Of a stretch of 21,662 nucleotides of DNA, positions 14,836-17,155 are shown piece after piece. This stretch comes from a virus. Below the pieces are notes generated by a model. The model made no database searches. It was not told where the DNA came from and saw nothing but the letters and a program-made list of their open reading frames with translations. How positions within the stretch are numbered: position 1 is the stretch's first letter; the number at the start of each line of letters is the position of its first letter. The translations under genes and the position numbers were made by a program. The stretch covers positions 1 through 21,662 of IMG/VR virus record IMGVR_UViG_3300046451_000389. One strand, written 5' to 3'.

Positions 14836-14864
14836 AATAAAAACTGGGGGAGAGAACTCCCCCA
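14836..14864 (-). terminator. Intrinsic terminator after the capsid gene
   Basis: On the minus strand TGGGGGAG, loop TTCT, then CTCCCCCA form a perfect 8-pair GC-rich stem, followed by G and five T. It lies about 31 bases after the capsid stop and just before the adaptor ATG at 14826. Flanking A and T runs extend the stem after one mismatch, so it might also stop plus-strand transcripts. Partial termination here would give far more capsid mRNA than adaptor mRNA. Confidence 0.85.
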
Positions 14865-14895: not shown

Positions 14896-16305
14896 TTATG
14901 TGTACTCTGCTCGAATTGCAGAAGTACCAGTAACCAGCTGATTAAAGCCGAGTGACTGTGCAGCAACAATAGCCGTACGCTGACCAGCTACTTCGTAGTC
15001 AGTCTCAATGCTAACACCCTTCAAACGGGGGATAACATAGTTGCGGTGGGCAACTGCTACAGCAGCGGTCGTACCAGTAGCACGTGAGATAGCATCAGTG
15101 GCAACTACAGGAGATCCGTAAACAGATCCAACCTGACCAATAAGCTTCATCGCTGTGTCGGAACCGACCTCTGAAACGTCAGAGAAGTCTCCGTCGCTGA
15201 TCAAGCTGAAGTACTCTTCATTGTTGACAATGTAGACTATATCGCTTGGGCTTCTGATACCATACTTGCCCATTTCGGACCTAAGGCTCATGAGCATAGC
15301 TGCGGTGAGAGGAACTGAACCATTGTTGTTCAAGTCCGCTACAGTAGCAGAGTCTGCGGCATAAGGACTATTAGCACCATCAGTACCTGTTCCACCTACA
15401 AGACCTTTAAAGGCAGTTTGACCAACCATGAAGGCCTGATCAATAGCTCGTGCATGAGCACGTGCCAGGGCAGAAGTAATGATTGGAAGCATAGTAATTA
15501 CTACTTGCTCTTCAACATCATTCGCGATATAAGTACCAGAAATCAATCGATGAGCACGTAAGATCACGTTACCAACTGAATAGTTGTTGTCCGAAGCGCC
15601 CGCTTCTTCCAACAGGTTGTTGACAGTTTCAAGGCCGGTAGCATTCCAGTTTGCGTTCTCGGTATCTGGAGCTATTGGCATTACAGTTGAGCCAGAATTT
15701 ACAGCAAGCTCACGGAAGATACCAGCAACGCGCTGCTCTTGCCTGACTTCCTCTTCGAAAGTATTTGCAACAATTACATCAATGTTAGCTGACGTAGTAG
15801 CTGATCCATAATCGACTCCGGCTTTCTCGAGTACTGATTTTGCGTAGTCAGTATCCCAGCCTTTTCGAGTAATTTTACCAAGAATGCTAGCATGTACCAG
15901 TTCTTGTTTTTGTGCATCAGTCCATTCGGATTGTCCTCGATCTGAGAACACACGCTTGGAATCACGCATCTTAGAAATCTCATCAGACCTCTCTTTAAGA
16001 TCAGCTTCATGCTCACGCATAATTTGATCAATCTGAGCATCCTTCTCTGCTACTTTAGAGTCGAGGTCTTTGAGCAAACGCTCGGTACCTGATTCCATAG
16101 CAGAGATTACTGCAGATTTAACTTCTTCCTCTTGCTGGGACTTAGCTTCTGCATTTGCAGTTGCTTGGTCTTCAAGATCTTTTTGGGCAGCCACTTCTGT
16201 GGCTTTTTGCTCGGCTTGCTTCATTGCGATTTTAGCAGCAGTTTCCTCAGCTACTTTTTTAGCAAAAGCTTCCAAGTCAACGGGTTGAGTTGTCTCTTCA
16301 GACAT
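14896..16305 (-). CDS. Internal in-frame start: major capsid protein alone (469 residues)
   Basis: The ATG at 16305 is residue 180 of the protease-capsid fusion (MSEETTQPVDLEAFAKK) and is preceded by AAGGAGA with six bases between GGAG and the ATG, the best ribosome binding site in the window. Translation from it gives the delta domain plus the capsid protein, exactly what a stand-alone HK97-like capsid gene would encode. Several hundred capsid copies but few protease copies are needed per head, so a nested start would set that ratio from one gene. The site falls exactly at the junction between protease and scaffold domains, which supports a real function. Inferred from sequence; whether the fusion is also made is not visible. 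Confidence 0.75.
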   Translation of the reverse strand: MSEETTQPVDLEAFAKKVAEETAAKIAMKQAEQKATEVAAQKDLEDQATANAEAKSQQEEEVKSAVISAMESGTERLLKDLDSKVAEKDAQIDQIMREHEADLKERSDEISKMRDSKRVFSDRGQSEWTDAQKQELVHASILGKITRKGWDTDYAKSVLEKAGVDYGSATTSANIDVIVANTFEEEVRQEQRVAGIFRELAVNSGSTVMPIAPDTENANWNATGLETVNNLLEEAGASDNNYSVGNVILRAHRLISGTYIANDVEEQVVITMLPIITSALARAHARAIDQAFMVGQTAFKGLVGGTGTDGANSPYAADSATVADLNNNGSVPLTAAMLMSLRSEMGKYGIRSPSDIVYIVNNEEYFSLISDGDFSDVSEVGSDTAMKLIGQVGSVYGSPVVATDAISRATGTTAAVAVAHRNYVIPRLKGVSIETDYEVAGQRTAIVAAQSLGFNQLVTGTSAIRAEYT

Positions 16306-16842
16306 TTGTATCTCCTTTTGGACTTGCGTCCCGTCACTAATAGTGAAAGTTTTTTTGAAATCCTCATACTCTGCCATAGAGTCAAAAGATTTCGCTAGTG
16401 AAAAAGTAGCTGACTGATTACACGGTACCGATACTACCGATACTTCAAACAACTCAGCGTCCTTTATTCTTAATCCGTCGGTTTCCTCTAAATAATCAGC
16501 GTCCTTGACTCGAAAACCAACAGAAAAGGCTCCAAGAACACCGTCTTTAACTAACTCTGCTACATCCTTAGCAGCCTTACTGATTTTCGCAGTAAGTTCC
16601 AATCCATTTTCAGTGCTCTTTAAACCAGTAGCTCTTCCAATAGGTCGGTTGTAATCGTGATTGAAAAGAATAATAGGATTCTTCTCGAAATTATTCAATC
16701 CACCTTTAGTCCATGCGTCCGCAGAAATAGAATCGCCCGCGCGATCAAAATCAGCAGTACTTGCCATGCCGCGAATCATAATGCTACCATCATCCTCGGT
16801 ATGAGACTTAAAAGTAGAGGTGAGATTAAATATCTTTTCCAT
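14896..16842 (-). CDS. HK97-type prohead protease fused to major capsid protein
   Basis: A 648-residue single frame with three parts. Residues 1-150 are an HK97-family (S78) prohead protease: FNHDYNRPIGR with catalytic His62, LGAFSVGF with Ser107, and LFEVSVVSVPCNQSA, the conserved motif near the third catalytic acid (E130/E133). Residues ~180-300 are an acidic/basic Ala- and Glu-rich coiled coil, the delta/scaffold domain removed on maturation. Residues ~300-648 are an HK97-fold capsid protein (TFEEEVRQEQRVAGIFRELAV, ISGTYIANDVEEQ, ALARAHARAIDQAFMVG, and the C-terminal FNQLVTGTSAIRAEYT). In most HK97-like phages protease and capsid are separate genes; fusions are known but less common. The start ATG overlaps the upstream gene by 17 bases and has AGGTGG close upstream. 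A strong internal start at 16305 suggests that the capsid part is also made alone. Confidence 0.93.
   Translation of the reverse strand: MEKIFNLTSTFKSHTEDDGSIMIRGMASTADFDRAGDSISADAWTKGGLNNFEKNPIILFNHDYNRPIGRATGLKSTENGLELTAKISKAAKDVAELVKDGVLGAFSVGFRVKDADYLEETDGLRIKDAELFEVSVVSVPCNQSATFSLAKSFDSMAEYEDFKKTFTISDGTQVQKEIQMSEETTQPVDLEAFAKKVAEETAAKIAMKQAEQKATEVAAQKDLEDQATANAEAKSQQEEEVKSAVISAMESGTERLLKDLDSKVAEKDAQIDQIMREHEADLKERSDEISKMRDSKRVFSDRGQSEWTDAQKQELVHASILGKITRKGWDTDYAKSVLEKAGVDYGSATTSANIDVIVANTFEEEVRQEQRVAGIFRELAVNSGSTVMPIAPDTENANWNATGLETVNNLLEEAGASDNNYSVGNVILRAHRLISGTYIANDVEEQVVITMLPIITSALARAHARAIDQAFMVGQTAFKGLVGGTGTDGANSPYAADSATVADLNNNGSVPLTAAMLMSLRSEMGKYGIRSPSDIVYIVNNEEYFSLISDGDFSDVSEVGSDTAMKLIGQVGSVYGSPVVATDAISRATGTTAAVAVAHRNYVIPRLKGVSIETDYEVAGQRTAIVAAQSLGFNQLVTGTSAIRAEYT
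16311..16317 (-). promoter_or_regulatory. Strong internal ribosome binding site for the capsid protein
   Basis: AAGGAGA on the minus strand, in the coding sequence for QKEIQ, ends five bases before the internal ATG at 16305. Few other starts in the window have such a match; neighbouring genes mostly rely on weak sites and stop-start overlap. Confidence 0.8.
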
Positions 16843-17155
16843 CTACCACCTCGCTTTCCGCTTTACTAGCGGGCTTTGCCTTATCCATTTTAACTGCAAT
16901 AGTAGGCTTTACTTCTTTTTCTACGGGCTTCTCAGTTGAGATGCCACTCATAACATCACCACGATGCCACTGAGTAGTGCATTTGACCATCATAGACCAT
17001 GATCCAAATATTCTTTTAATATGCTTTAAGAAGTATTGTGGCGGCCTACTAGAGTCCTCATTAAAGTCTCTAGAGTTACCAATATAGCCTTTCTCAGCAA
17101 AGTACATTGCCATAGTAGCTGCCAGGGCTTTTTTCTGTTTCGATGATCCTGCCAT
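16826..17155 (-). CDS. Small unknown protein between portal and protease
   Basis: A 109-residue protein that I do not recognise. Residues 1-60 look folded and helical (KKALAATMAMYFAEKGYIGNSRDF, PPQYFLKHIKRIFGSWSMMVKC, HRGDVMSG). Residues 68-109 are low-complexity, rich in Lys, Glu, Pro, Val and Ala, and probably disordered. No signal peptide or membrane segment. Its start shares one base with the portal stop (TAATG) and its end overlaps the protease start by 17 bases, so it is translated as part of the portal-capsid unit. Candidate roles, all inference from position: a head accessory or scaffold-like protein, or a portal-associated assembly factor. Confidence 0.75.
   Translation of the reverse strand: MAGSSKQKKALAATMAMYFAEKGYIGNSRDFNEDSSRPPQYFLKHIKRIFGSWSMMVKCTTQWHRGDVMSGISTEKPVEKEVKPTIAVKMDKAKPASKAESEVVDGKDI

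Follow-up and report, generated by a model that had tools for sequence, protein, structure and literature searches.

In-phase nested protease-scaffold genes are well established in phages lambda (C/Nu3) and Mu (I/Z), in which the C-terminal part common to both products is made in excess from an in-frame internal start, and this part delivers the protease. In all T5-like records that we examined, including those of T5, Ceto, phiR2-01, D37 and PM135, the prohead protease and the capsid protein are encoded by separate adjacent genes. The capsid gene begins 7–17 nt after the protease stop in T5, Ceto, D37 and PM135, and in T5 itself the pb11 protease and the D20-21 (pb8) capsid genes lie 17 nt apart. 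Fusions of the two are described for Arthrobacter phage clusters AM, AU and AN and Rhodococcus phage RRH1 (PMC5513430) and for thaumarchaeal proviruses (PMC6563490). A single protease-capsid gene is also present in the actinophages Circum, Gordon and Maggie, in Lactococcus phage 1706 and in Pseudomonas phage PAJU2. The excerpts of PMC5513430 and PMC6563490 that deal with fused genes do not mention a nested start, and we found no literature linking prohead protease, capsid and an internal start. Here we describe a gene of an uncultured T5-related phage that appears, from its sequence and that of its relatives, to have two products, a fusion of protease and capsid protein and the capsid protein alone.

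The window, by which we mean the whole 21.7-kb virus record, contains a 648-aa open frame on the minus strand in which a prohead protease of the S78 type is followed by a scaffold and a capsid protein of the HK97 type (Table 1). Pfam placed Phage_capsid (PF05065, E 2.7e-8) at residues 357–632 of the same uninterrupted frame that carries the S78 domain, and the PHROGs labels were head maturation protease and major head protein. Protease and capsid share one frame in all 184 codon-aligned relatives as well, and in 10 MAG loci. The sequence-only reading of this DNA had proposed such a single frame and had stated that protease-capsid fusions are known in some phages; the former agrees with the one ORF and its two Pfam domains, the latter with the actinophages, PAJU2 and the thaumarchaeal proviruses. 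The neighbors of the gene are T5-like (terminase, portal, head completion protein, T5 p143-like protein, tail terminator and p140-like tube protein). As in the Demerecviridae head module, homologous head genes stand in the T5 order of portal, small gene, protease, capsid, head completion, T5 p143-like protein and tail terminator, with approximately 50% identity for the protease and 28–33% for the capsid protein, whereas the two separate genes of T5 are one frame in the window. According to its record, T5 pb8 is cut after K159, which aligns with residue 339 of the fused protein, and on this alignment a maturation cut after K340 is predicted. An internal promoter was discarded as a candidate, the consensus matches being weak and near the chance rate (12 versus 8.1). 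The MAG titles of related contigs name mostly Gammaproteobacteria, which is weak evidence on the host.

Three scans of viral contigs gathered the 184 relatives of the fused gene (185 genes with the window). They share ancestry and do not amount to 185 independent tests, and the 19 replacements beside the fixed bases, described below, are the safer number; changes were counted on a 114-sequence tree in which any two sequences shared less than 97% identity. In L223, the fused frame is split into pieces of 556 and 194 aa, perhaps an assembly error. The protease of L058 is 98% identical to that of the window and its capsid protein 41% (amino acids; window positions 16333–16842 and 14899–15822 compared), and the corresponding values for L038 are 81% and 66%. 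Judged by such alignments, the two halves have clearly been exchanged between phages, for example in L058, L034 and L069, and the conserved junction between them may be the crossover point. In the protease tree, the T5-like phages formed a separate branch of unfused genes, with the fused relatives L206, L226 and L208 outside or beside this clade. Because L206 and L226 branch outside it, albeit with modest support and long branches, the separate genes of T5 could be derived by the splitting of an older fusion.

Within the fused frame, the ATG of M180 lies 6 nt after AAGGAG, the sequence upstream of it being AAGTCCAAAAGGAGATACAA. M180 stands where the T5-like phages begin their separate capsid gene, which is also the junction of the protease and scaffold domains. 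An in-frame ATG at 16305 with AAGGAGA at the domain junction had been reported from the sequence alone, and both its position and its good spacing stand. The motif itself is not rare (AGGAGN{5,8}ATG occurs 4 times in the window, versus 3.2 expected from shuffles); the significance of the site derives from its location in frame at the exact junction and from its conservation. AGGAG, the 6-nt spacer and ATG are kept exactly in 185 of the 185 fused genes, so that the loss of the AAGGAGA/ATG pair in close relatives that keep the fusion, which the same reading had named as evidence against its proposal, was sought and did not occur. Codon 176, which precedes the GAG, encodes Lys in 126 genes, Gln in 36 and Glu in 23, and is always xAG; on the 114-sequence tree its first base underwent 19 parsimony changes and its second and third bases none. 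The ATG and the GAG of codon 177 showed no changes on the same tree, against a gene-wide average of 22 at third positions, and codon 177 is GAG in 185/185 genes, in which GAG makes up only 37% of the Glu codons. Since residue 176 varies while bases 2 and 3 of its codon are fixed, selection acts on the nucleotides of the ribosome-binding site and not on the peptide. Deeper fused relatives from MAGs, with 31–45% identity, also have a Shine-Dalgarno sequence and ATG at the junction (L224, AGGAG; L225, AAGGA; L226, AGGAG), as do the still more distant fused ORFs L206 (AGAGGA) and L208 (GGAGGT). The gene therefore has an internal in-frame start with its own ribosome-binding site, apparently selected as such, as expected of an in-phase nested gene of the lambda C/Nu3 type. 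Comparison of the relatives strongly supports the nested start at 16305 as a selected feature, and initiation there would be the best explanation of the invariance. Downstream of M180, the first 30 codons (187–213; window 16200–16282) likewise have unusually constant third positions, without a clear fold; GAC189, for example, is present in 184/185 genes.

Table 1 Coordinates of the features of the fused gene and its flanks in the window
Feature	Coordinates	Strand	Basis or remark
Fused prohead protease-scaffold-major capsid gene, 648 aa	14896..16842	minus	ORF, Pfam, PHROGs
Shine-Dalgarno GAGGTG, 4 nt before the full-length ATG (16842)	16847..16852	minus	not conserved among relatives
Peptidase_S78 domain, residues 22-156	16375..16779	minus	Pfam PF04586, E 3.9e-16
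Hairpin 1 (24 consensus pairs), inside protease codons 101-129	16456..16542	minus	conserved RNA structure
Hairpin 2, codons 150-162, 11 consensus pairs with covariation	16357..16393	minus	conserved RNA structure
Nearly invariant single-stranded stretch AAAACTTTC, codons 164-166	16345..16353	minus	
Internal Shine-Dalgarno AAGGAG	16312..16317	minus	AGGAG invariant 185/185
Internal start codon ATG (M180), in frame	16303..16305	minus	ATG in 185/185
Predicted second product, scaffold-capsid precursor, 469 aa	14896..16305	minus	start = T5 D20-21/pb8 and Ceto gp25 start
Scaffold (delta) domain, residues 180-340, inferred	15823..16305	minus	alignment to T5 pb8
Mature capsid protein, residues 341-648 (predicted)	14899..15822	minus	Phage_capsid PF05065
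Terminator-like hairpin GGGGGAG-TTCT-CTCCCCC then CAGTTTTTA (T-run), directly 3' of the capsid gene	14847..14863	minus	

Fusions of this kind were already known; what is new are conserved RNA hairpins inside the protease coding sequence, which the earlier reading had missed. Measurement of synonymous change revealed a block at codons 97–134 in which third positions hardly vary. An overlapping frame was ruled out as the cause, the other frames on both strands being broken by stops in nearly all sequences. RNAalifold predicted a long hairpin at this block on the sense strand only, with many G-U pairs and an unfolded reverse strand. Its shape is that of a long imperfect duplex of roughly 20 consensus pairs in the stem, topped by an apical helix and interrupted by a conserved large internal loop. 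Standard pairs are formed by 98.9% of the cells in 99 distinct sequences, compared to 30–56% when the partner was slid by 1–3 bases. One pair exchanges G-C to A-U in 24 sequences; the covariation score was reached by 0 of 500 shuffles. Wobble bases with a partner in the stem are limited to those that can pair: CTT (Leu103), GGT (Gly109), GTC (Val112) and AAG (Lys127) are each used in 94/94 cases, whereas codon usage predicts 43–56 pairing-compatible cases of 94. For hairpin 2, 97.8% of the cells are paired (33–49% in the slid controls), four pairs show changes on both sides in a total of 56 cells (19 when shuffled), and one position has four different pair types. Slid partners, shuffles and the codon-usage expectation together control for compositional effects. 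Pairing percentages of this kind are to be read with the caveat that random codons consistent with the alignment columns rarely reach similar values (mean 0.80, maximum 0.998 in 3000 trials); chance codon choice cannot yield two-sided changes, and these, found mostly in hairpin 2, answer the caveat. Both hairpins are situated downstream of the full-length start and upstream of the internal one, with hairpin 2 ending about 50 nt short of the internal ATG, and codons 164 and 165 had no third-position changes in the 114 sequences. No other conserved fold of comparable strength was found in the approximately 6.8 kb around the gene. The apical loop of hairpin 1 contains AAGGA (window 16502–16506, codon 113), and AAG is present there in 183/183 sequences although the wobble base of Lys113 is unpaired; this sequence might be contacted by the ribosome or by a protein. 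The sequence AAGGAYGCTGA of codon 113 is found again at codon 127.

Hairpin 1 is absent as a fold from the T5-like separate-gene phages, in which only 9–18 of its 24 pairs can be formed and weak matches to its model reflect the shared protein; this rules it out as an ancestral T5 feature. Neither is it formed in the distant fused relatives L206, L208 and L226. These have the nested start without hairpin 1, which is therefore not needed for a nested start.

We consider it probable, from the conservation of both the site and the RNA structures, that the gene is an in-phase nested pair, with the fusion started at 16842, the capsid precursor at 16305, and hairpins that help set the output. Initiation at 16842 would give the protease-scaffold-capsid fusion, the only protease source of the locus, and initiation at 16305 the scaffold-capsid precursor, which would form the bulk of the shell. 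The fusion would bring the protease into the prohead through its own scaffold and capsid part, and the protease, once inside, would remove the scaffolds. Located in the protease portion of the mRNA, the hairpins probably contribute to setting the output of the internal start, and may in this manner tune the ratio of fusion to capsid protein. They would do so by lowering the share of the fusion or by freeing the internal site, be it through mRNA processing, limited ribosome traffic over the internal site or a bound regulator.

The hairpins could also serve another purpose, which is a point against their part in this control. There is a chance only somewhat below even that they act on translation, by slowing or thinning the ribosomes or by binding a capsid or protease regulator, or else have a role unrelated to the nested start. 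Their location in the translated protease region, ending near the internal site, and their nature as G-U-rich structures of the sense strand are compatible with this, but elongating ribosomes normally melt such stems, and the presence of the nested start without hairpin 1 in the three distant relatives also counts against this reading. We regard as rather unlikely that the hairpins are a site for RNase III or a similar enzyme, which would cut the protease part and release a downstream transcript that can be translated from the capsid start only. Long imperfect duplexes with a large internal loop are known from RNase III sites of phages. Hairpin 1 is compatible with such a site in its shape; it lies between the two starts and is not formed in the T5-like phages with separate genes, but the window had no match to a known RNA family in Rfam at the gathering threshold.

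The internal site had been called far better than the full-length one, which is wrong for the window: GAGGTG pairs with the anti-Shine-Dalgarno at least equally well (−11.0 to −12.3 kcal/mol for the full-length site, −8.7 for the internal site), and the RNA around the internal start is not predicted to fold less strongly. Superiority of the internal site is a property of the group, not of the window. Of 93 distinct relatives, 82 have the stronger site at the internal start and 8 at the full-length start, with 3 ties; the full-length site varies across the group from none to strong, while the internal site is constant. Given the strength of the full-length site in the window, the ratio of fusion to capsid protein cannot be read from site strength, and translating ribosomes could occlude the internal site, which counts against the nested start. 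An output of little fusion and much capsid protein is nevertheless plausible by analogy, because the protease is minor in the proheads of HK97 and D3, both separate-gene systems, with protease:capsid copies of approximately 60:415 and 90:540, respectively (PMC12749128). A nested start would give an excess of capsid protein and a plain fusion would not; a nested start thus fits these counts.

It is improbable that the full-length fusion is the sole product and that its protease is released by self-cleavage, giving capsid and protease at 1:1, with the internal site as the leftover of a separate capsid gene. The PAJU2 fusion has been described in such terms, with autocatalytic cleavage (as cited in PMC8306868), the full-length site of the window is strong, and in the T5-like relatives, whose genes are separate, a site is found at the same position. 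Yet a leftover site would decay at third positions, given the mean of 22 changes per codon, and no decay is seen; the site is also kept in very distant fused relatives, and the 1:1 ratio departs from the counted stoichiometries. Least credible, and very improbable, is that the bases are fixed by a K/Q/E-E-x-x-M peptide or that the junction is a preferred crossover point of protease and capsid modules, for although the parts are swapped between phages (as in L058), K, Q and E interchange freely before the Glu while the last two bases of their codon never change, the GAG is never GAA, and the flanking codons differ in sequence and number.

Other known fusions, which are unrelated or very distant to the window gene in sequence, have start-like sites of their own, and none of these families matched the hairpin 1 model. 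In the Circum group (L215 and L228–L234, which takes in Streptomyces phages and Lactococcus phage 1706; 35–93% identical), GGAAGG or AAAGGAG stands a short distance before an apparently unannotated ATG, TTG or GTG in 8/8 members examined. This start is at the N-terminus of the capsid protein proper, M(A/S/T)xNVFD, and not of the scaffold as in the window. M165 of Circum was dropped as the nested start, as it is not conserved; the conserved site of the group is at alignment column 342. PAJU2 (L210, M197) and EH1846 (L214, M193) have AGGAGG and AAGGA, respectively, before an aligned ATG at the protease-scaffold junction, and in the Maggie group the nested site is not consistent. The sites of the Circum group and of PAJU2 and EH1846 are the reason that the nested arrangement may be general among protease-capsid fusions, with differing sites, and those of PAJU2 and EH1846 suggest a re-reading of the 'self-cleaving polyprotein'. 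The broadest form of the proposal is tentative, with slightly more doubt than belief: an undescribed cis-acting RNA element, made up of the two hairpins and the invariant internal ribosome-binding site, would set the protease:capsid ratio in a large marine T5-related group, and nested starts would be general for fusions, including the 'self-cleaving' ones.

Hundreds of phages carry annotated protease-capsid fusions, and a 1:1 ratio is at odds with the 1:6–7 counted for HK97 and D3. This conflict would be resolved by a nested start, which predicts a second, unannotated product for each such phage and would mean that present annotations misplace the N-terminus of the capsid precursor. To structural biologists it would indicate the construct to express for proheads, and with the RNA element, regulation embedded in coding sequence can be put to the test. 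In design, the gene would work like the in-phase nested genes of lambda (C/Nu3) and Mu (I/Z). These differ in that the part common to their two products is confined to the scaffold and their protease is unrelated (of the S49 type in lambda), whereas the predicted products of the window gene share the scaffold together with the major capsid protein.
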